From an uncultured Gammaproteobacteria bacterium (GTDB taxonomy: Bacteria > Pseudomonadota > Gammaproteobacteria > Nitrosococcales > Methylophagaceae), in assembly GCA_905479985.1 (NCBI GenBank), contig CAJQOM010000028.1:1-49690 (forward strand): a DNA stretch of 49,690 bases, written 5' to 3'. The position numbers and the translations under genes are program-made. The notes beneath the pieces were generated by a model. The model made no database searches, was not told where the DNA came from, and saw only the letters and a list, made by a program, of their open reading frames with translations. Shown piece after piece: positions 21,635 to 49,149 of the stretch (position 1 is its first letter; each line of letters starts with the position of its first letter).

Positions 21635-21720
21635 TTTCCTCTTTCAAAATGTGACTACGGTAAAGATAGATGGGGAGGTCATCGATGACGGTCCATTACT
21701 ATCAGTTACCTGTTAATAAT

Positions 21721-21788
21721 GAACGCGGTTGAAATTATCTCGCGAATAAGCCTAGCAGGTGTGTACCTGTTGCAGCGTTCCTTATTCG
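21721..21788 (-). ncRNA. SAH riboswitch upstream of metK
   Basis: On the minus strand this reads as a canonical SAH aptamer. CGAATAAG and CTTATTCG pair as P1. Inside are the conserved GAACGCTGCAAC and AGG-C core bases with a short AGGT/ACCT hairpin. The downstream GCGTTC (ending at 21721) pairs exactly with GAACGC to make the pseudoknot. SAH riboswitches usually turn expression on when SAH accumulates. Here the element heads metK-ahcY-metF, so SAH would raise the whole methyl cycle. The assignment rests on the conserved core plus two perfect helices. Confidence 0.9.
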
Positions 21789-21797
21789 AGGGCGTAT

Positions 21798-40477: not shown

Positions 40478-40610
40478 TCTTCTTCCTAGATCAAGATCTT
40501 AAGACTAATTTATACCTAGCTTACTTTCATAAAGCGAGGATACTTGTCACATTTGTGAGGATGAGGTGCGTAGTGAATATGATTGAGTGCTACTAGCGAT
40601 TAGACATCAC

Positions 40611-40646
40611 AAAAAAAAGCCCTAGCAGCGTGAACTGTCAGGGCTT
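40611..40646 (-). terminator. Terminator following the tRNA-Phe 3' half
   Basis: AAGCCCT and AGGGCTT form a stem separated by 16 bases; on the minus strand it is followed by eight T residues. It is the natural terminator of the disrupted tRNA gene. Confidence 0.8.
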
Positions 40647-40655
40647 GAATTTTAA

Positions 40656-40700
40656 TGGTGGCTCGACCTGGAATCGAACCAGGGACACAGGGATTTTCAA
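40656..40700 (-). pseudogene. tRNA-Phe (GAA), 3' half only
   Basis: On the minus strand this gives TTGAAAA (anticodon loop, GAA at 40696-40698), the TCCCT stem strand, a GTGTC variable region, CCTGG-TTCGATT-CCAGG (T arm), TCGAGCC and ACCA. The 5' half (acceptor, D arm and the other anticodon strand) is missing: the next bases, TTGAA, cannot pair. The break lies at the anticodon loop, a usual crossover point for tRNA-targeting integrases. The real tRNA is probably restored at the other end of an element or elsewhere. Confidence 0.85.
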
Positions 40701-40863
40701 TTCAAAAGACTATGGCTTTTCTAGCTTCCCGTAAATAGGCGAAAACTACCCTTTAGAGCTATACGTGTCAGCACTTGTGAATAGTTATCTTTACCTCCTC
40801 AGATAACTGGAATATACTCTTAATCACTAATAAACCTTACCCCTGCCTTACCCCGGAAATGAT

Positions 40864-42057
40864 ATGGCTAAAAAAGTGCTTCACTTTACACAGGCAAGAA
40901 TTAAAGCATTAGCGGTTCCTGATGCGGGCAGAGTTGAATATTACGATGACGAAGAAAAGCGGCTGATGTGCCGAGTTAGCAGCACTGGCAACAAAACTTA
41001 TAACGTCGTGAAGTGGGCTGGCGGTAAAGTCCAACGGGTTACTATTGGCAATGTTGATGATGTGACAACGACCGAAGCAAGAAAGAAAGCTAAAACCATA
41101 TTATCTGAAATTAACTCAGGCATTAATCCGACAGCAGCAAAACGCAAACATGAAGCAGAAAAAACAAAACTTGTTGATGTGCTTGAGCTTTATCTGGCAG
41201 GTCGTGATTTAAAACCATACACAATTAAAGATTATCGGTACAAGTTGGAACTTGGCTTTGAGGATTGGCTAAAAAAACCAGTTAGTAGCATTACTGAAAG
41301 CATGGTTATAAACCGTCAAAAACGAATAAGTCAGAAACAAGGCAAGACTACTGCAAATACGACAATGCGAGTATTACGCTTAACTTTGAATTATGCTCAG
41401 GCAGTTGGGATGATAGGCAGTAATCCCACCAGCATATTGAGTAAGGCGCGCTTATGGCACAAAAACAATCGTAAAGATCGCGTAATCCCGAGCAATCAAT
41501 TAAAGACATGGCATGAGGCTGTTGAGGCATTGTCCAATCAACGGGCAAAAGTGTATTTATTAATGGCTTTGTATATGGGTTTCCGGAGTTCTGAACTATT
41601 AACGCTTGAATGGTCACATATCGATATGAGATCTAAAACTATCACGTTATATGACACTAAGAACGGGACGAATCACACCTTACCTATACCTAGAGTGTTA
41701 ATCCCTTATATCAAAGCCTTAAAGGAGCATACGGGCAAATATAAATGGGTTTTTGCAGGGGATAAACCTGATAGGCCGATGGCAGTACCCGCTAAACCAA
41801 TAAAACTTGTTACAAAGGCTTCAGGTGTAGATTTTAGCCCCCATGATTGTAGGCGTACCTTTGCCACTATTGCTGAAGCTGTGAGCCTTCCTATGAGTAT
41901 GATTAAACGGTTAATGAATCATGTTACGACTAATGATGTGACAGGGGGGTATATCGTCACAGAGGAAGAGACTTTACGCCAAGCGATTAATAAAGTGGCT
42001 GACTACATTCAAGCGAGAGTGAGACAAAAAGATAATGTGATTAAATTACATAGATAA
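40864..42057 (+). CDS. int: Tyrosine site-specific integrase
   Basis: This 397-residue recombinase would insert and excise the island. It has an N-terminal arm-binding region (1-90), a SAM-like core-binding domain (about 100-195), and a catalytic domain with Arg241 (GFRSSELL), His327-x-x-Arg330 (PHDCRRTF), His353 (LMNHVT) and the nucleophile Tyr363 (GGYIVT). All catalytic residues are intact. It begins 164 bases from the tRNA-Phe fragment, as expected for a tRNA-specific element. Resemblance is to P4-type prophage integrases. Confidence 0.95.
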   Translation: MAKKVLHFTQARIKALAVPDAGRVEYYDDEEKRLMCRVSSTGNKTYNVVKWAGGKVQRVTIGNVDDVTTTEARKKAKTILSEINSGINPTAAKRKHEAEKTKLVDVLELYLAGRDLKPYTIKDYRYKLELGFEDWLKKPVSSITESMVINRQKRISQKQGKTTANTTMRVLRLTLNYAQAVGMIGSNPTSILSKARLWHKNNRKDRVIPSNQLKTWHEAVEALSNQRAKVYLLMALYMGFRSSELLTLEWSHIDMRSKTITLYDTKNGTNHTLPIPRVLIPYIKALKEHTGKYKWVFAGDKPDRPMAVPAKPIKLVTKASGVDFSPHDCRRTFATIAEAVSLPMSMIKRLMNHVTTNDVTGGYIVTEEETLRQAINKVADYIQARVRQKDNVIKLHR

Positions 42058-42064
42058 TCAGTTA

Positions 42065-42120
42065 AACCAAGCCTAGCTCGACGGAGCGAAAGCAGGTTAC
42101 GTTCACCTGTTGGCTTGGTT
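42065..42120 (+). ncRNA. Three-way-junction RNA element or terminator after int
   Basis: AACCAAGCC (42065-42073) and GGCTTGGTT (42112-42120) close an outer stem. Inside, GCTC-GACG-GAGC and CAGGT-TACGTTC-ACCTG form two further hairpins, and TTTT follows the stem. It can act as the int terminator, but the multi-branch fold is unusual. The following gene has a good ribosome-binding site (AAGGAG) soon after. Confidence 0.55.
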
Positions 42121-42150
42121 TTTTATTGAACGGTGCGAAGGAGCGAACGC

Positions 42151-42882
42151 ATGAAAAAAACCACTATAGTTGAGCAAAGACTACTTAAAAGCAAGACAGG
42201 GAAAGATCGTAAAGGAATGTTTAAATTTAGGAAGGAACGCGTCGATTTCTCCACGGGAAAAGAAGAAAATCCTCAAGCTATAATGGATATGTTTGATTAT
42301 CTTTCTAAAAATAATAAATCCCATAAAGATATGATTATGGCTCATATAAACAATCAAGAAGAGCTGGCCAGAAGAGTAATAAGAAAATTAGGCGTAGATC
42401 CCGATGATAAGAAGACTTTTTTTACTCTTGGCGATGGCAGTCGAGGTAATTGTGACTCAGTTATAGCTAAAAAAAAGGAAGAAAGAGAACCCGAAGGGTA
42501 TGCTGGGGATATATTGTTCTATGCTAGACAGCTTAGACTTGAAATTGAGAATGACGACCTTTTTAAGGCCTTACATGCTGGTCTAAAAATGGAGGAAGCA
42601 TACGGAAACTTTAATCTTGCTCAGCATGAACTTGAAATACTAATTGGTTCTGAAGTAATTGCTAAAGGCTCAAAGTCTGCGAAGTTTTCAGCAGAAGCAA
42701 AGAGAGGCTGGCTGGTACAAGCTAAACAATTATGGGAGGCAAGCCCAAGTGAGTACCTTAAAGCAAATGGCGAGAAAAATTATAGACAAACAGCGGTGCG
42801 AATCATTGTAGACAATAAAATGGAAAGTAAAACAGTACAAACAGTCGAGAAGCACTTAGCCAATAACGATGAAAAAATGTAA
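42151..42882 (+). CDS. Island protein of unknown function
   Basis: I do not recognise this 243-residue protein. The start at 42151 (MKKTTIVEQRLLKSKTG) has AGGAG 8 bases upstream; a GTG further upstream is less likely. It is highly charged, predominantly helical and without Cys clusters or membrane segments. The middle has YAGDILFYARQLRLEIENDDLFKALHAGLKMEEAYGNF, and the C-terminus (about 185-240) has KRGWLVQAKQLWEASPSEYLK..., resembling proteins coded in island lysogeny modules. Position between int and the AlpA gene suggests a regulatory or accessory role; nothing more can be claimed. Confidence 0.8.
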   Translation: MKKTTIVEQRLLKSKTGKDRKGMFKFRKERVDFSTGKEENPQAIMDMFDYLSKNNKSHKDMIMAHINNQEELARRVIRKLGVDPDDKKTFFTLGDGSRGNCDSVIAKKKEEREPEGYAGDILFYARQLRLEIENDDLFKALHAGLKMEEAYGNFNLAQHELEILIGSEVIAKGSKSAKFSAEAKRGWLVQAKQLWEASPSEYLKANGEKNYRQTAVRIIVDNKMESKTVQTVEKHLANNDEKM

Positions 42883-42961
42883 GGGTATCGTTTACATTTG
42901 AGCTACACAGAATAATAACCTCAAAACAAAGCAAATAACTGTTTTGTAATTGAGGTGAATT

Positions 42962-43159
42962 ATGACGAACAAACAAAACTTAATATCAGCAGAACAAGCA
43001 GCTGATTATCTCGATGTAACTACTCGCACACTTGCAAACTGGAGATCACGCGGTTTTCCTAACGTGCCTTGGTCAAAAATTGGCCGGTGTGTGCGATACC
43101 GCATATCAGATTTAGACACTTACATTGCTAAACACTCACATAATAATGTGAAGGGTTAA
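42962..43159 (+). CDS. AlpA/excisionase-type helix-turn-helix regulator
   Basis: This 65-residue protein is a MerR-like winged helix (HTH_17) found in excisionases and AlpA-type activators: LISAEQAADYLDVTTRTLANWRSRGFPNVPWSKIGRCVRYRISDLDTYI covers the whole fold. In P4-like elements and phage-inducible islands it controls int or replication genes. It starts at an ATG with GAGGTGAAT just upstream, 79 bases after the unknown gene, and 3 bases before the next gene. The role as island switch is inference from homology and position. Confidence 0.9.
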   Translation: MTNKQNLISAEQAADYLDVTTRTLANWRSRGFPNVPWSKIGRCVRYRISDLDTYIAKHSHNNVKG

Positions 43160-43162
43160 GTA

Positions 43163-43555
43163 ATGACTAATAAAATTATTCACGAATCAAAAGCAGATAG
43201 AGTGCTGGCGGCTTTAATGTCAGGCCGTACCTTTAATCGTTTTGAAGCTGAACGACAACTGAGCGATCATTGTTTGCATAGTACCGTCGCACAGTTACAG
43301 CGAGTTAAGCAGCTAAGGATTGAACGCAAGTATGAAACAGTGCCAGGTTTTCAGGGCAATCCCACAAGTGTTTGCCGGTACTGGATAAAACCAGAAGAAC
43401 GAAAACGAATAATGATCCGACGGAGGTTATACCTTCCAAACAAAGAAGCCTCAGACCCTACCGACCAAGATAAAGAAAGAGGCTTAAATTTAAACAGTTC
43501 TGATGATACTGCCAGCGTAAATAAACCGCAAATTGAACTGAATAATGGGGCATAA
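43163..43555 (+). CDS. Predicted DNA-binding HTH protein in the replication module
   Basis: The 130-residue protein has an N-terminal winged-helix-like region: ADRVLAALMSGRTFNRFEAERQLSDHCLHSTVAQLQRVKQLRIERKYETVPG, with a basic RIMIRRR stretch and a low-complexity polar tail. Similar short HTH proteins precede replication initiators in integrative elements. It starts 3 bases after the AlpA gene and ends 3 bases before rep, so the three are one operon. The family is not one I can name confidently. Confidence 0.75.
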   Translation: MTNKIIHESKADRVLAALMSGRTFNRFEAERQLSDHCLHSTVAQLQRVKQLRIERKYETVPGFQGNPTSVCRYWIKPEERKRIMIRRRLYLPNKEASDPTDQDKERGLNLNSSDDTASVNKPQIELNNGA

Positions 43556-43558
43556 ATT

Positions 43559-44356
43559 ATGCGAGAAATTGCCCCAAATATCACGGGCGGTTTGTGCTTA
43601 GCGGTGAATGCTTACGAAAAGAGAGGTGAGGCCCTAGCTGTTGGGGCTTCACTTATTTCCGAAACGGCCATAATTCCGCGGTTATTAATAATATCTAATA
43701 ACGAAATTAATAAACCATTACCTGTAATAGATAAACAAATAGTAAACGCGTCGAAGGTTATTAAACGCACAATCAACAGGAAACAAATAACACGCGGCGA
43801 TACTTTTACTCATGGCGATGTTACATACCGAATCAACAACGGCAAAGGGAAAGTAAAACTAGGGCTTTATGTTGAAACGTTAAGAAGCATTGCCGAACAA
43901 TTTCAGATAGCACTAGAAAGCTGGCGGCGGGTTTTTGTCTTACGTGTTGAGCTTCATCAATCTTACAAGTCAGATAACAGTGAGGCGGTGGCAAAATTTA
44001 TAAAGGGATTAGGTCAAAAGCTAAAACGCGAATATGGCTTTAAACAAATTGGGTATTGTTGGGCGCGTGAATATCACGGCAAAGGCAAAGGTCAACATTA
44101 TCATTTTGCATTGTTTCTTGATGGCAATCGAATACGCCATTCTTCACGAATCAACGAGATTATACGAAAAGCATGGCAGCGGCCTACAGGCGGTTACACC
44201 ATTGGAAAAATAAAGCGACCGTATTACATGGTTGATGATAAAAAAATGGAACAGGAGGCCATGTATCGGCTCACATACCTAGCCAAGGTGAGGGGCAAAG
44301 GTCATAGGCCGCCACAGGCTAAAGATTTTCAATGTTCACGCATGAAAGCCATTTAG
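43559..44356 (+). CDS. rep: Replication initiator, inovirus Gp2 / YagK-YfjJ type (HUH)
   Basis: The 265-residue protein is the likely replication initiator of the island. The HUH metal-binding motif appears as QHYHFALFLDG with His180 and His182. Basic blocks follow (RIRHSSRINEIIRKAW), and candidate catalytic Tyr residues are Tyr236 and Tyr240 in MYRLTYLAKVRGKG. This is the YagK/YfjJ C-terminal family known from P4-like prophages and filamentous phage-like elements. It is the last gene of the alpA-HTH-rep operon. Rolling-circle type initiation is inferred from the HUH core. Confidence 0.85.
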   Translation: MREIAPNITGGLCLAVNAYEKRGEALAVGASLISETAIIPRLLIISNNEINKPLPVIDKQIVNASKVIKRTINRKQITRGDTFTHGDVTYRINNGKGKVKLGLYVETLRSIAEQFQIALESWRRVFVLRVELHQSYKSDNSEAVAKFIKGLGQKLKREYGFKQIGYCWAREYHGKGKGQHYHFALFLDGNRIRHSSRINEIIRKAWQRPTGGYTIGKIKRPYYMVDDKKMEQEAMYRLTYLAKVRGKGHRPPQAKDFQCSRMKAI

Positions 44357-44736
44357 TTTCTTCAGTCCCTAAAGGGAATAGTTTCACGTGCTTATAAAAA
44401 AGGGTTTTCGGAGCAGTACGCGAAAGGTGGTCTACATTGAAAAAGTCAAGATATGGTCAAGGGTAAAACTGAACGCTAACCGAACAAGTAAAGCATTAAC
44501 TATCAATGATATACATTAATTAGTGAACAAGAAGTGAACGCTAAAATGAGCGCTAGGTAGTCTATAAACTGCTATGTTAATCAATAGGTTAATGGGTTTG
44601 TTGAGCAAGGATTGAGCGCGTTAGGGGTAGGGGGGAGTTGATACCTACAACGCACTACAGAATGACCGATGCCCAAGCTAAACATTCACATCTCCAAAAT
44701 AAACATTTTGATTTGTAATTAACTGGAGCATTAAAA
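44357..44736 (+). other. Non-coding region of the island with TGARCGCTA repeats
   Basis: This 380-base stretch between rep and terS contains no gene I can support. It carries TGAACGCTA at 44470-44478 and 44535-44543, TGAGCGCTA at 44547-44555 and a weaker TGAGCGCG at 44613-44620. Such short direct repeats next to a replication initiator suggest an origin (iterons) or a packaging recognition site next to terS. Neither function is demonstrated. Confidence 0.5.
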
Positions 44737-45141
44737 ATGACGAAAGGACGAAAACCAATACCAACGGCTTTAAAGCTGATCCAAGGCACATTGCGAAAAG
44801 AGAGAATAAATAAACACGAGCCGGACATCAAAACGAAGATGCCAGCGTGTCCGGCTTGGTTAAACGTGGAAGCTAAAAAAGAATGGAAGCGTTTAATAAA
44901 AGAGTTGAATAAGTACGGTATAGCGACAGGCTTTGATTTTATCGCCTTGGCTACCTTGTGCCAGATGTGGGGAGAATACATTGAGGGGGCAAAGGTTGGT
45001 GAGCCGGTTGGCGCGGCTCATGTAACACAAATGCGTTTATTGCTGGTTGAGTTCGGTATGACACCATCAAGTAGATCCAAGGTGGAGGCTGTTGAAGTTC
45101 TTGAGCCAGATGCCTACGATCCGTGGAATGAATTTGATTGA
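44737..45141 (+). CDS. terS: Phage terminase small subunit, P27 family
   Basis: TerS recognises phage DNA at the packaging site and recruits the large terminase. The 134-residue protein starts MTKGRKPIPTALKLIQGTLRKER, then MPACPAWLNVEAKKEWKRLIKEL and ATGFDFIALATLCQMWGEYIE, the P27-type layout, and ends with VLEPDAYDPWNEFD. There is no large terminase or capsid gene nearby, which is exactly the pattern of satellites that borrow a helper phage. Its ribosome-binding site is GGAG 10 bases upstream. It is the final gene of the island. Confidence 0.88.
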   Translation: MTKGRKPIPTALKLIQGTLRKERINKHEPDIKTKMPACPAWLNVEAKKEWKRLIKELNKYGIATGFDFIALATLCQMWGEYIEGAKVGEPVGAAHVTQMRLLLVEFGMTPSSRSKVEAVEVLEPDAYDPWNEFD

Positions 45142-45229
45142 AGAATCAAAAATATGTGAGCTAACCATATATTTTATAGAATGTTATCCATCATAAAAAA
45201 TGTGCCTGCTGACTGCTTTGGCTTGAATA

Positions 45230-45332
45230 GTGACCTTTGAAACTGTTGTCGCTAAAGTGCCAAAAGCGGTCATTCGTTTAACGTCTGCGCTCAGCCATCA
45301 CTGTACGCTGTCGGTTGGAAAGCTTGTTAGGT
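45230..45332 (+). repeat. Dispersed repeat, copy 2, with attC-like core
   Basis: Copy 2 shares about 50 bases with copy 1 (143-196) and about 35 with copy 3 (46911). It ends in GTTTAAC (45276-45282) and, 43 bases on, GTTAGGT (45326-45332). These fit the R'' (RYYYAAC) and R' (GTTRRRY) boxes of integron attC sites. The inner arms are weakly complementary, so an attC identity is tentative. Confidence 0.45.
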
Positions 45333-45382
45333 GTACTCTATCTATAATTACTAACTTCATCAAAAATTGTAGAATGCATAAG

Positions 45383-45450
45383 TGTTTTGGTTTAGACACA
45401 AGATACTCGGCTTCACGGCCGTGCTAGTTCGATTCCTGCCCTAGGTACCA
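45383..45450 (+). pseudogene. tRNA-Leu remnant lacking the anticodon arm
   Basis: GGTTTAGACACAAGA (D arm), a Leu-type long variable arm (CTCGGCTTCACGGCCGTG), TTCGATTC (T loop) and CCTAGGTACCA (3' acceptor and CCA) follow each other as in tRNA-Leu. The anticodon stem-loop is deleted between ACACAAG and the variable arm, the T stem is mismatched, and no paired 5' acceptor is present. It cannot be functional. A terminator follows, showing it was once a tRNA gene. Confidence 0.75.
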
Positions 45451-45460
45451 ACAAATATCG

Positions 45461-45495
45461 AAGCCTCAATAGTTTATTCTGCTGGGGCTTTTTTA
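45461..45495 (+). terminator. Terminator after the tRNA-Leu remnant
   Basis: AAGCCTC and GGGGCTT pair (one G-T), followed by TTTTTT. It is the likely original terminator of the tRNA gene. Confidence 0.7.
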
Positions 45496-45634
45496 TTGTA
45501 TTCGTTTTGGGAATGATTTAAATCTGGCACTTTTTCAATTGTTAAATACTCCCCCCTCACCGGTGACAAAATACATCGCGAGTTCCTATTATGCCTATAC
45601 GCTTCAGTAAACCTGATAGTGTCAGTATTTCCGA

Positions 45635-45648: not shown

Positions 45649-45900
45649 AAAGACGGAATTTGAAGGAAGAGCTGCCTGAATTAATGACAAGTATACATAT
45701 TGAGTTAACCGACTGGTTGCAGCAGGTCCTGATTATGTAAATAGAAGCAGTCCGAAGATGAGAACTGGTCAGGCCTGTATATCAGGAAGGTGAGCGTATA
45801 TACTTTAAGCAAGCAGCAAAGTGGTTTTTGAAGAGAAAATCATTAACGTATTTTAGTAGCTGCGTTTGCAAAGAATTAATAACTAATGAGGCTAAATGTT

Positions 45901-46170
45901 ATGGTTTCCATCAGGAGAATAGTCCTAGATGTGCTCAAACCCCATCAGCCGAACGCGTTGGATTTTTCCCGGGCCATTGCCGAAGCTGGCACAGATTACC
46001 ATGTGCGTTTGACTGTACTCGAAGTGGATGAAAGCACCGAAACGCTTCAGATTGTACTCGAAGCCAAAAGCATTGATTTTGAGGCTGTCCAGTCCGCCAT
46101 CAGTGATATGGGTGGCTCACTCCACAGTATCGACGAAGTCGAAGTTCAAAATGACGCGGGTGTCAATTAA
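45901..46170 (+). CDS. DUF211 family protein
   Basis: The start at 45901 (MVSIRRIVLDVLKPHQPNALDFSRAIAEAG) has GAGG 9 bases upstream. The 89-residue protein matches the DUF211 layout (small ferredoxin-like fold; VLEAKSIDFEAVQSAISDMGGSLHSIDEVEV at the C-terminus). The family is best known from archaea and has no established function. It is followed after 6 bases by the VIT-like gene, so the two are co-transcribed. Bacterial occurrences suggest transfer, which I cannot test here. Confidence 0.85.
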   Translation: MVSIRRIVLDVLKPHQPNALDFSRAIAEAGTDYHVRLTVLEVDESTETLQIVLEAKSIDFEAVQSAISDMGGSLHSIDEVEVQNDAGVN

Positions 46171-46176
46171 GTTTTC

Positions 46177-46761
46177 ATGAAACTATTTGAGCAGGCAGAA
46201 TTTTTACTGCACATTACCCGTACGCGAGATATTGTACGGCGCTATTTTGTAGTCAATGGCTTTGATGGCGCGCTCACAATGCTTGGGCTCATTATAGGAT
46301 TTCTCGTCAGTGCACCCGCAGATTTATCTGTAATTATTAATGCCTGCCTAGGTGCTGCCATTGCACTGGGTATGAGTGGCTTCAGCAGCGCCTATGTCAG
46401 TGAATCGGCGGAACGACAGCGTGCACTGGGCAAATTAGAGGAAGCAATGATTAGTGATCTGCAGGACAGTGCGCATGGCGAGGCGGCACGTAGTGTGCCG
46501 TTGCTGATTGCGCTGATCAATGGCCTAGCGCCGCTGGTGATTTCTTTGCTGATTTTGATGCCCTTATTACTGTCTGATGCAGGATTCTCAATGCCAGTAC
46601 CGCCACTGTATGCTGCAATTTTTGTTGCGTTGGTACTGGTGTTTCTACTGGGTGTATTTCTTAGCCGCATCGCAGGAATTTCATGGTTGCGCAGTGGCAT
46701 CCAGACTTTGCTGATTGCGGTGGTGACCATAGTGCTGATTTATCTGTTTGCTGGGCAATAA
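46177..46761 (+). CDS. VIT/CCC1-like membrane protein (TIGR00267 type)
   Basis: The 194-residue protein has about five membrane helices (about 30-48, 52-75, 106-128, 138-161, 168-190). RYFVVNGFDGALTMLGLIIGFLVS and MSGFSSAYVSESAERQRALGKLEEA are the usual VIT-family segments. VIT relatives move iron or manganese ions. It follows the DUF211 gene by 6 bases and precedes a broken P-type ATPase gene by 1 base, which suggests a former metal-handling set. Ion and direction of movement are unknown. Confidence 0.8.
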   Translation: MKLFEQAEFLLHITRTRDIVRRYFVVNGFDGALTMLGLIIGFLVSAPADLSVIINACLGAAIALGMSGFSSAYVSESAERQRALGKLEEAMISDLQDSAHGEAARSVPLLIALINGLAPLVISLLILMPLLLSDAGFSMPVPPLYAAIFVALVLVFLLGVFLSRIAGISWLRSGIQTLLIAVVTIVLIYLFAGQ

Positions 46762-46762
46762 T

Positions 46763-46896
46763 ATGTCACAGTCTGTCTGGTACAGCATGAAAGTCGATGA
46801 AGTACGCAACAGTTGGCGTCTTCAGCATCTGGGCTGAGTCATGCAGAGGCGTAAAAACGTCTGGCCGAACATAGTCGAATACTGCCGTTTGAAAAT
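46763..46896 (+). pseudogene. P-type cation ATPase, N-terminal remnant
   Basis: From ATG at 46763 the frame encodes MSQSVWYSMKVDEVRNSWRL and stops after 24 residues. With one base inserted near 46834 and the TAA near 46853 read as Gln, it continues as SHAEA(Q)KRLAEHSRILPFEN, the start of the cation-transporting ATPase N-terminal domain. The rest of the gene (over 800 residues) is gone. Frameshift, stop and truncation make it a clear pseudogene. It begins one base after the VIT-like gene, so all three were once an operon. Confidence 0.8.
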
Positions 46897-46910
46897 TAGG
46901 CTAACTTAAT

Positions 46911-47044
46911 CAGTCGCTCACATGCCACAAGCGGTCTTTCGTTTAACGTCGGTGGTAAGCGGCAGATCACAGCGATGAGAGGCTTGTGCTATTCAGCACA
47001 AACGAGCACCGCGAAGGGTTGTCCGCTTACCACCTTTGTTATGT
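46911..47044 (+). repeat. Dispersed repeat, copy 3, with nested hairpins
   Basis: After the shared core (46911-46950), GGTGGTAAGCGG (46951-46962) and CCGCTTACCACC (47023-47034) form a perfect 12-base outer stem, with TTGTGCT and AGCACAA (46984-47001) paired within. GTTTAAC and GTTATGT lie at its edges, as in an attC-like element. It directly follows the ATPase remnant and precedes the cold-shock gene. Confidence 0.55.
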
Positions 47045-47079
47045 CCTTATGCTTTCGAAAACCAGTTTAATTACTAGGG

Positions 47080-47286
47080 TTAGACGGGCACCACCTTATT
47101 AGCGCATGGCCCTTTTTGACCTTCCCCAACTTCATACTCCACTTTCTGACCATCACTCAGGGTTGCATAGCCACCGCCAGCTTGGATTTCAGAATGATGA
47201 ACAAACAGATCCTTGCCACCATCATCTGGAGTAATGAAGCCAAAACCTTTATCCGCGTTGAACCACTTTACTGTACCTGTACTCAT
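47080..47286 (-). CDS. Cold-shock-like RNA chaperone (CspA family)
   Basis: The 68-residue protein is a single cold-shock domain with RNP1-like KGFGFIT and RNP2-like DLFVHHSEI motifs ([32 protein letters not shown]). It binds single-stranded RNA or DNA and relaxes RNA structure. The Lys/Gly-rich tail [10 protein letters not shown] is usual. A purine-rich stretch lies before the ATG. The gene is monocistronic and lies downstream of hsp20 by about 195 bases on the same strand. Whether it is cold-induced cannot be told. Confidence 0.93.
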
Positions 47287-47451
47287 GCCGTATTTTCCTT
47301 TGTGTATTTATTATTCATTGACTTCGATTATTTTTCTATGTGTCGCCGGTTGTTACCGCTTTATCGTCGTTTCCTGATATAGGTTGAACGTCCTGTGACT
47401 CACTATCGTCTACCTCTGACTGTTTCAGTGTTAACAATAAATAATATGTAA

Positions 47452-47467
47452 CCCGGCTTTTACCGGG
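47452..47467 (-). terminator. Short hairpin downstream of hsp20
   Basis: CCCGG and CCGGG (47452-47456, 47463-47467) form a five-base stem, 15 bases past the hsp20 stop. The U-tail is weak, so termination may be partial. Confidence 0.4.
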
Positions 47468-47481
47468 CTATATTTAGCGTA

Positions 47482-47982
47482 TTAGTCTACCTTGACGGTA
47501 TGACGCTTGGATTTTTTAAGCTTCGGTAAAGTCAACTCAAGAATGCCATCCTTGAATTTGGCCTTGGTTTTATCTTCATCGACATCGGCGGGTAATGAAA
47601 GCGTACGTGAGTAGCTACCCCGTGATATTTCACAACGGTAGTAGTCACCTTTTTCTTCTTTCTCTTCATGACTAGTACTGCCTTTGATAGTTACCGTATT
47701 TGAGGTAACGGAGATATCGAGATCTTTTTTGTCGACACCGGGAAGTTCGGCCTTGACCATAATCTCATTATCACGCTCAATGACGTCAACACTTGGCGTC
47801 TTGCCTTCAAATGGTGCTGATGCTTTAGGTAATGATGGCCACTCCATATGAAAAGGGCGTGGCCAACCACGTGAAAAGTACCGGTCAAACATCCGTTCCA
47901 TTTCGTGAAATGGACTCATGATATGTGCAGGCTCAACTTTTTGCACTTCCTGTCTGGATTCTTTTTTGTCTTCTTTAGTCAT
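47482..47982 (-). CDS. Small heat-shock protein Hsp20
   Basis: Hsp20 proteins hold unfolding proteins for refolding by other chaperones. I start at 47982 (MTKEDKKESRQEVQKVEP) with AAGGAG 8 bases upstream; a longer frame adds 20 unrelated residues. The 166-residue protein has an N-terminal Pro/Phe/His-rich arm (MERMFDRYFSRGWPRPFHMEWPSLP) and an alpha-crystallin domain (about 60-155) ending GILELTLPKLKKS. An FNR/Anr-type box lies about 65 bases before the ATG. It belongs to the same cluster as the CBS and HPF-cold-shock genes. Confidence 0.93.
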   Translation of the reverse strand: MTKEDKKESRQEVQKVEPAHIMSPFHEMERMFDRYFSRGWPRPFHMEWPSLPKASAPFEGKTPSVDVIERDNEIMVKAELPGVDKKDLDISVTSNTVTIKGSTSHEEKEEKGDYYRCEISRGSYSRTLSLPADVDEDKTKAKFKDGILELTLPKLKKSKRHTVKVD

Positions 47983-48040
47983 AATAAACACTCCTTCGCT
48001 CATATATAAAAAAATAATAGGTTTTAAATCAAAAAGTGAC

Positions 48041-48055
48041 AATGATCTAAATCAA
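48041..48055 (-). promoter_or_regulatory. FNR/Anr-type binding site upstream of hsp20
   Basis: On the minus strand TTGATTTAGATCATT matches TTGAT-N4-ATCAA except for the last base. It lies 59-73 bases upstream of the hsp20 ATG, a position suited to activation under low oxygen or nitrosative stress. Confidence 0.6.
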
Positions 48056-48082
48056 TCCATTCGTACTAATAGCTTTTTATAG

Positions 48083-48532
48083 CTAAACTGTTTTTTCTTG
48101 TTCAAGAATTTGCTCTTTTGAAATCAGTTTTGCCAGATCTATCATTTGTTCAGCGAGTAAATCAAGCAAATCGTCTACAGAAATGATTCCTACTAGGGCT
48201 CCTCCATCATTCACAATAGGAGTTCGCCTTACCCCTTTGCTGCGCATCCTTTTAATGGCATCCATTAAATCTATCGACTCAGGGAGTACCAGCAAATCAA
48301 AACTCATTACATCGCTGATATTGACAGATTGAAGGTCAATATTTTCGGCTAGAACTTCGACAACAATATCGCGATCAGTCAACATACCTACGGGAATGAT
48401 GGCATCATTGATTTGATCAACGACCACAACAGCTCCTACATGTTCTGAACGCATCAGGCTAATTGCTTCTTGGACAGATTCAGTCTTATTAACAATAACA
48501 ACATCACGATTGCAATATTCACCAATAGACAT
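48083..48532 (-). CDS. CBS-domain protein (stress cluster)
   Basis: The 149-residue protein is a CBS pair (about residues 8-65 and 72-130): VVIVNKTESVQEAISLMRSEHVGAVVVVD and MDAIKRMRSKGVRRTPIVNDGGALVGIISVDDLLDLL. It likely binds adenine nucleotides, no catalytic domain is present, and a short C-terminal helix follows (EQILEQEKTV). It lies 47 bases from the HPF-fusion gene and about 100 from hsp20, all same strand. The function in the cluster is unknown; nucleotide sensing is inferred from the domain. Confidence 0.9.
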   Translation of the reverse strand: MSIGEYCNRDVVIVNKTESVQEAISLMRSEHVGAVVVVDQINDAIIPVGMLTDRDIVVEVLAENIDLQSVNISDVMSFDLLVLPESIDLMDAIKRMRSKGVRRTPIVNDGGALVGIISVDDLLDLLAEQMIDLAKLISKEQILEQEKTV

Positions 48533-48579
48533 ATCAATACTCCTTAATTACATACTGATTCAGGCAAGAAAATATGTGA

Positions 48580-49149
48580 TTATTTGAAACCTGAATGATG
48601 TTTACTTTCTATGTGTACAGTGCTTGCCTGAGGACCTTGTTCACCCGCTTCTTCAGAGAAGTGAGCTCTATCACCAATTTTAAGGTTATCAAAATCAAAG
48701 CCAAGTAAGCTGTTACGGTGAAAATAAATTTCCCTACCATCCGTGGTTTCAATAACACCATAATTATTTTCTGGAAAAAGTGCTTTAATCGTACCATGCG
48801 GTGAGACCTCATGAATTTTTACATCGCCGCGCTGTTTTCGGACAAAATCTTCAATCTGGCGGCGAACAGCGTCGAAAGCATCCCGAATAACGACATAGGC
48901 ATCTTCATGTGAGTGATCTTGCCCTGACTGCTTGCTAGCAACAACTTCATGGCCTGGGAGGGTGACATCTATTTTTACACTAAATAGATTGCCCTGATGA
49001 TGGTGACGATGTGGTTCTTCAACTACGACTCTGCAACTCATTATATGCTTAGAAAAATGATCAAGCTTTTGGGCTCTCTCTTTTATCTTTGCTTCAACAG
49101 CATCCGAGTGTTCCATGTTCTTAAACGTGATTTGTAATGGTATTGGCAT
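48580..49149 (-). CDS. HPF/RaiA-like domain fused to a cold-shock domain
   Basis: The 189-residue protein has a ribosome-hibernation (RaiA/HPF) fold in residues 1-105 (MPIPLQITFKNMEHSDAVEAKIKERAQKL...) with a His-rich loop (PHRHHHQG), and a cold-shock-like domain in 112-189 (HGTIKALFPENNYGVIETTDGREIYFHRNSLLG). It differs from the short HPF at 14604 and lacks the dimerisation domain of long HPF. It probably binds the ribosome and RNA together during stress. It heads the minus-strand group HPF-CSD, CBS, hsp20. Confidence 0.88.
   Translation of the reverse strand: MPIPLQITFKNMEHSDAVEAKIKERAQKLDHFSKHIMSCRVVVEEPHRHHHQGNLFSVKIDVTLPGHEVVASKQSGQDHSHEDAYVVIRDAFDAVRRQIEDFVRKQRGDVKIHEVSPHGTIKALFPENNYGVIETTDGREIYFHRNSLLGFDFDNLKIGDRAHFSEEAGEQGPQASTVHIESKHHSGFK

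Follow-up and report, generated by a model that had tools for sequence, protein, structure and literature searches.

The window analysed here is a stretch of 49,690 nt that comprises the whole of one contig (C28) of an uncultured gammaproteobacterium of the family Methylophagaceae, a marine methanol consumer whose genome amounts to 2.2 Mb in 46 contigs. Towards its end lies a mobile element that is probably a phage satellite resembling the phage-inducible chromosomal islands (PICIs). The original prediction, made from the sequence alone, had placed this element at 40656–45450 and described six same-strand genes encoding a tyrosine integrase (Int), an unknown protein of 243 residues, an AlpA-like helix-turn-helix (HTH) protein, a further HTH protein, an HUH-type replication initiator (Rep) and a P27-family small terminase subunit (TerS). 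The list of open reading frames (ORFs) of the window contained all six at that place, all on the + strand and all open. Between the first two of them we found a structured RNA, int-alpA (RF02996), which the prediction had missed. The features of the element are as follows (the slot gene being the one that encodes the 243-residue protein).

40651–40701, − strand: one member of an att repeat pair, formed by the 3′ half of a tRNA-Phe gene; its 51 bp recur unchanged on contig C9
40835–40854, + strand: doubled CCTTACCCC motif, putatively integrase-arm-like
40864–42057, + strand: int, tyrosine integrase, 397 residues
42066–42133, + strand: int-alpA RNA, RF02996, full-length match
42151–42882, + strand: slot gene, 243 residues (or 249 if translation starts at the GTG at 42133), without a family match above cut-off
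42962–43159, + strand: alpA, 65 residues
43163–43555, + strand: protein of 130 residues, without a Pfam or NCBIfam family
43559–44356, + strand: rep, PF11726, HUH-type replication initiator, 265 residues, with HYH at 180–182, Y236, Y240 and K243
44357–44736: noncoding stretch between rep and terS, a possible origin in which the repeats seen are weak
44737–45141, + strand: terS, P27 family, 134 residues

Profile searches bore out most of the predicted gene functions. Int matched the Pfam profiles Phage_integrase (9.3e-18) and Arm-DNA-bind_3 (7.8e-14), and the complete catalytic set could be read from its sequence, with the arginine in GFRSSE, HxxR in HDCR, the histidine in NHVT and the tyrosine in GGYIV. 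AlpA matched HTH_17 in Pfam (1.3e-9) and the excisionase family phrog_66 in PHROGs (3.5e-8). TerS was assigned by PF05119 (3.9e-13; 50.1 bits against a cut-off of 24.7), phrog_83 (6.9e-27) and TIGR01558 (1.2e-13; 51.1 bits against a cut-off of 45.6). It also matched 234 phage records, with 24 of the 25 matches listed annotated as terminase small subunit, and had 359 relatives in IMG/VR, the 80 retained being at 36–41% identity; the IMG/VR relatives indicate only that TerS belongs to a phage family. The HTH label given to the 130-residue protein found no support from any Pfam or NCBIfam family, and the sole PHROGs match was phrog_4973 at 0.037. Relatives of this protein lie between alpA and rep in three other genomes (G001, G008 and G010) and beside alpA in a fourth (G003). 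No primase family was detected among the six proteins in the Pfam, PHROGs and NCBIfam scans. The predicted lack of structural and large-terminase genes held for the scanned proteins of the assembled part, with an assembly gap remaining, and 40600–45600 had no blastn match to phage records. The genes int, alpA and those for replication share one direction. Taken together, these results suggest that the element can integrate, probably copies itself and makes no virus shell, and it is therefore likely to ride inside phages.

Rep matched PF11726 (1.2e-13) and REP_ORF2-G2P (8.3e-8) in Pfam. HYH (180–182), Y240 and K243 were invariant in all 13 aligned Reps and Y236 was nearly so; we take these residues to be the HUH and YxxxYxxK motifs. 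Both the HUH motif and the YxxK tyrosine motif are present, in agreement with the predicted HUH type. The structure model of Rep had a mean pLDDT of 71 overall and was good from approximately residue 74 onwards. Among viral predicted structures, 145 matched it at E ≤ 0.001, among them Inovirus Gp2 and replication initiators of microviruses, with a TM score by query of 0.46 to the structure named Inovirus Gp2. A search of PDB sequences with the Rep profile gave no credible match. In VIA-align the best row was SIRV1 ORF119 (Z 8.6, rmsd 3.3, 112 aligned). Lower rows held the Rep of adeno-associated virus, parvovirus NS1 and geminivirus Rep, all of them HUH proteins, mixed with unrelated GGDEF domains at equal Z, so that the result supports an HUH fold and does not decide it.

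The attachment site was then recognized from a 51 bp identity between C28 (40651–40701, − strand) and contig C9 (from 1983), the site of an intact tRNA-Phe gene adjoining a mutL-like gene (by eye). On C28 the tRNA-Phe match stops in the anticodon region and is followed by element sequence. A doubled motif, CCTTACCCC-nn-CCTTACCCC, lies just inside both ends, at the left end on C28 and at the tRNA-Phe end on C9. A specific attachment site with att repeats is thus present, its two copies being on two contigs. A complete relative in G017, a genome of the same genus, shows the same design: it occupies 4.2 kb in a tRNA-Thr gene between 46 bp repeats (6198 and 10357 of locus L099), carries doubled motifs inside both repeats, and has int, alpA and a small gene, followed by rep and then by a gene that is weakly TerS-like. 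By analogy with this design, our element would start at 40651 and end on C9 at approximately 1983. The proposed limits therefore need revision: the tRNA-Phe half at 40651–40701 is the left end, and 45450 showed no right end. That position is not a proven end, because the counterpart of the left end is found on C9, next to the intact tRNA-Phe gene. Among the 20 largest of 30 direct-repeat families within 40.4–46.2 kb, none joins the ends of the element. Small size, which had been offered as a distinguishing property, is likewise unproven with the right end on C9 and with approximately 8 kb extra in the relative of G010.

Rep was found in 8 of the 59 genomes searched, our own included (seven of the 58 others), with G001, G008, G017 and G028 belonging to the same genus. 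Five of 14 Rep loci in named genomes were from Methylophaga, and further ones were from Cycloclasticus, Vibrio (two), Mariprofundus, Thalassotalea, Shewanella and Photobacterium. In the class sample, 12 of 369 genomes (again with our own) had a Rep match, approximately half of these being weak and partial. A 7187 bp Rep-bearing contig of Mariprofundus sp. KV (L153) has a stated coverage of 283.75, and its ends do not overlap. The compact gene order recurs in several genomes at different tRNA genes, and in three Rep relatives (G018, G033 and Shewanella; loci L097, L101 and L156) int lies just downstream of tmRNA. In G003, where the flanking HD gene is 82–83% identical, the same tRNA-Phe fragment is accompanied by an interrupted int (80% identity), alpA and a relative of the 130-residue protein; this Rep is missing there, and further on lies a gene for an RND pump.

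The gene after Rep differed among these eight genomes. Our own has the P27 TerS (PF05119) and G028 a Terminase_2 TerS (PF03592, 3.5e-12, above cut-off). G008 and G017 share the same kind of 134-residue protein, with a weak match to phrog_2606 (7.4e-4 and 5e-4 respectively); that of G017 had no match in phage records. In G010 the place is taken by an HTH protein of 206 residues; its best family, phrog_867 (1.7e-8), bears the name 'DNA binding domain' and not TerS, and its one match in phage records, from a Pseudomonas phage, is unannotated. In G033 a DNA methyltransferase follows, in G018 nothing was seen towards the contig end, and in G001 no ORF of 60 residues occurs before tRNA-Met, repeats being found instead. 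The repeats of G001 (L100, 3699–3985) are direct, of approximately 63–66 nt and spaced 76 and 130, and form a possible origin or packaging site. The tally is therefore a curated TerS in two of eight, a weak TerS match in two, another HTH protein in one and none in three. Outside the genus and family, L222 (G114) has a gene after Rep that matched TerS (phrog_1206, 2.8e-6), and no TerS match was obtained in the genes scanned after Rep at L150, L153, L154, L157, L221, L223 and L224, a scan that left out L152, L155, L156, L225, L226 and L232. As the tally is small, exchange of TerS is a reading of few cases.

The int-alpA RNA lies between int and the slot gene and is the only copy found in the genome; in the class sample RF02996 occurred in 40 of 369 genomes, at 52 places. 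It consists of a closing stem and two hairpins, followed in the window by a U run. The loop of hairpin 2 (CGUUCA, 42100–42105) is complementary to a tail after the U run (UGAACG, 42127–42132). The complementarity was noticed among the loci L178, L182, L186, L191–L199, L200–L219 and L100. The pairing was analysed in 33 sequences, from 32 of the 52 places and L100; L194 was excluded because it nearly duplicates L193. The sequences' own loop-to-tail pairing was reached by none of 20,000 permutations on both measures, in a test that leaves shared ancestry in; a first version (27 of 34 sequences) gave none of 10,000. Five or more loop–tail pairs were present in 25 of the 33 and six or more in 19, in many different sequences with compensating changes; L198 and L218, among the 25, were outside the usual register. 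The other eight had only four pairs, no better than shuffles. Rfam may already record the pseudoknot, as cmscan output does not print pseudoknots. Pairing of the loop with another partner, at the ribosome site, was also considered; 2,273 and 1,372 of 20,000 permutations were as extreme on the two measures (2,461 and 939 of 10,000 in the first version), which is not significant, and it is not claimed.

For 20 of the 52 places more of the surrounding sequence was retrieved, and with our own 21 loci were examined. In all 21 the RNA is followed by an ORF of 80 residues or more, beginning 67–157 nt after the first base of the RNA, which is partly by design because an ORF start between 60 and 200 was required. 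The 21 slot proteins gave no detectable pair out of 210 (phmmer, E ≤ 1e-3). In 12 loci with an upstream ORF of at least 150 residues, the upstream ORFs gave 29 of 66 pairs and the slot proteins of the same loci none of 66. Within the genus, G001 and G008 have related slot proteins, indicating that the slot is variable, not random. We suspected that the slot proteins have a C-terminal HTH in common, but this was not established. The best match of the 243-residue protein was BREX_BrxC_wHTH (3.4e-4; 21 bits, below the 27-bit cut-off), PADLOC gave no defence family, and its structure model was unusable (mean pLDDT 38). This gene had been regarded as an oddity; a variable gene between int and alpA is in fact common in related elements and behind the int-alpA RNA. 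A comparable gene between int and alpA, of 13 families, is described for the phage-inducible chromosomal minimalist islands (PICMIs), and is reported to be essential for excision in the model PICMI (PMC10803314). The likeliest role of the int-alpA RNA is that of a folded leader or terminator which affects the slot gene. Candidate TerS genes near the RNA were scanned from five of the 20 loci and three were TerS (L200, phrog_83, 6e-8; L205, PF05119, 5.8e-17; L207, PF20901, 1.8e-9). Some other loci seem to hold phage tail genes (by eye), so the RNA is not confined to satellites. In the literature as far as it was accessible, int-alpA appears in a single paper, as a table entry with a remark of no further study and no function given. 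Our result gives RF02996 a concrete loop–tail pairing and a likely target gene.

Beyond terS, the space between the proposed ends comprises 45.5–49.7 kb of C28, a gap of unmeasured length, and C9:1–1983. Two further features lie in the first part.

45424–45499, + strand: tRNA-3′-end-like sequence with terminator, possibly another boundary
45886–49149: DUF211, VIT1, CspA, Hsp20, CBS and HPF-like genes, possible cargo

The first, when compared with the reverse-complemented tRNA-Phe end of C9, is 75% identical over 77 bp, and could mark another boundary. A by-eye reading as a tRNA-Leu scar at 45.4 kb was unsupported by ARAGORN and Rfam and the pattern was found nowhere else in the genome, so only a tRNA-3′-end-like sequence is claimed. 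The terminator-like stretch at 45452–45494 is 88% identical over 43 bp to G009 (L111, 3148–3106). C28 ends in an ORF resembling the start of an IS30-type transposase (by eye), and this end does not overlap C9:1–12000. In C9:1–1983 lie a short ORF that by eye looks CsrA-like and, immediately inward of the element's tRNA-Phe end, a gene for a 437-residue protein (L007, 498–1811) without a match in Pfam at curated cut-offs, PHROGs or PADLOC. The 45.5–49.7 kb part of C28 and part of C9 may be island cargo. Consistent with this, 4 of the 29 genomes of the genus have DUF211 and 2 have the HPF-like protein, which includes a cold-shock part, at full length (18 of 29 had an HPF-like match of any kind, the rest of the 18 only to the cold-shock part), and G010 has approximately 8 kb between its Rep region and an intact tRNA-Phe gene (C52:12642). 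Restriction-type genes (by eye) occur in that stretch of G010 (L102, 5235–11999; L143, 1–479) as possible defence cargo. Elsewhere in the window, an S-adenosylhomocysteine riboswitch (RF01057) was detected at 21714–21789 on the − strand (46.8 against 37 bits).

The element is real and integrated, and we consider it probable that it is an integrated phage satellite of a PICI-like kind. The integrase, AlpA, the P27 TerS with its phage matches, the HUH-motif Rep, the shared tRNA-Phe repeat and the lack of virion genes in the assembled part all argue for this, as do the complete G017 relative and the recurrence of Rep. In addition, our genome contained neither another PF05119 TerS nor a TerL_ATPase (PF03354). 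AlpA-driven satellites without capsid genes (PMC10803314) and phage-packaged islands with int, alpA and a Gp2-like gene (PMC12595487) are in print. Several results weigh against such a satellite. No helper phage was identified, and the element is known from genes alone. The search for a resident helper covered the terminase families PF05119 and PF03354, of which the latter alone is a TerL family, and found none. TerS had no relative in the 58 other genomes and Rep none in IMG/VR, three of the eight Rep-bearing genomes show no TerS-like gene after Rep, and in G010 this gene is the HTH protein not named TerS. Foldseek comparison of the Rep model with the PDB gave nothing at E ≤ 0.001, and the PDB fold evidence is supportive at best. 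Finally, the gap between C28 and C9 could hold late genes.

We next weighed whether the same genes could belong to a genomic island that moves otherwise, for example by conjugation with a helper integrative and conjugative element, or is immobile, being mainly cargo with TerS as an anti-phage decoy or regulator. HUH proteins include relaxases, restriction-type genes in G010 (by eye) may be cargo, accessory stress genes follow in the window and three of eight Rep relatives have no TerS-like gene after Rep. However, no relaxase or conjugation family scored above cut-off among the window proteins scanned with Pfam and NCBIfam, Rep matches replication families and viral Reps, and TerS or TerS-like genes lie directly after Rep in four of eight, and we regard such an island as unlikely. 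Still more improbable is a decayed prophage, with integration, replication and TerS genes left from a tailed phage without late genes: TerS is of a phage family, the right end is not settled, and G003 has an interrupted int at the same site, but the compact order recurs in several genomes at different tRNA genes, the six window ORFs are open, the complete G017 element has intact att repeats within 4.2 kb, and 50,697 phage records gave a single, weak match to Rep.

For the phage satellite, mobilisation by a helper is what we infer, and the following cycle can be proposed. An infecting tailed phage would switch on alpA, and AlpA and Int, perhaps with the slot protein, would excise the element. 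Rep would then nick the origin and drive rolling-circle replication to head-to-tail multimers, to which the element's TerS would recruit the large terminase of the helper for packing into helper particles. Integration in the next cell would restore tRNA-Phe. More tentatively, and with considerable doubt, HUH-replicated satellites may keep int, alpA and Rep and swap TerS to change helper, with the gammaproteobacterial int-alpA RNA as a pseudoknotted leader controlling the changing slot gene. The element would extend minimal AlpA-type satellites to methylotrophs, with another replication engine and a packaging adaptor of its own, and the same element with different packaging genes would offer a natural series for testing how satellites choose their helpers.

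VEIMEs and tycheposons are marine, integrase-bearing elements at tRNA sites, some with packaging genes. Among the papers listed in a search with subscription papers mostly outside it, no title or abstract described the combination of satellite, HUH, rolling circle and TerS, and none of those listed for Methylophaga and satellites names this genus. The claim that the element is undescribed was nevertheless too strong, as PICMIs (PMC10803314) and islands of the I23/I44/I55 type (PMC12595487) are in print. The jumbo-phage-packaged islands I23, I44 and I55 share int and alpA with our element and have an inovirus-Gp2-like protein, to which Rep may be linked by the family name and the fold match to Inovirus Gp2. 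They measure approximately 20 to over 70 kb, carry YqaJ and RadC, and differ from the window in order and site; the I55-type integrase is downstream of tmRNA (PMC12595487), as in the three Rep relatives above, whereas our element is in tRNA-Phe. PICMIs share few genes, int, a variable gene, alpA, rolling-circle-like replication and the lack of capsid genes; they need prim, sit at fis and are without a recognizable terS (PMC10803314). In contrast, our element has TerS, has no primase and is in tRNA-Phe, not fis, and is thus not a PICMI. Its RNA is a full-length match to RF02996 (58.5 bits against a gathering score of 35.8). With Gram-negative PICIs such as EcCICFT073 it shares the unidirectional int, alpA and replication module, and some PICIs have terS (PMC6092414, PMC10111431). 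Many PICIs map to tRNA genes, and the attP sites of HE-PICIs have a doubled motif of other sequence (PMC10111431). The element is therefore PICI-like in layout and probably in function, and unlike the PICIs compared in having an HUH-type Rep in place of a primase (pri/pri-rep) followed downstream by an origin.

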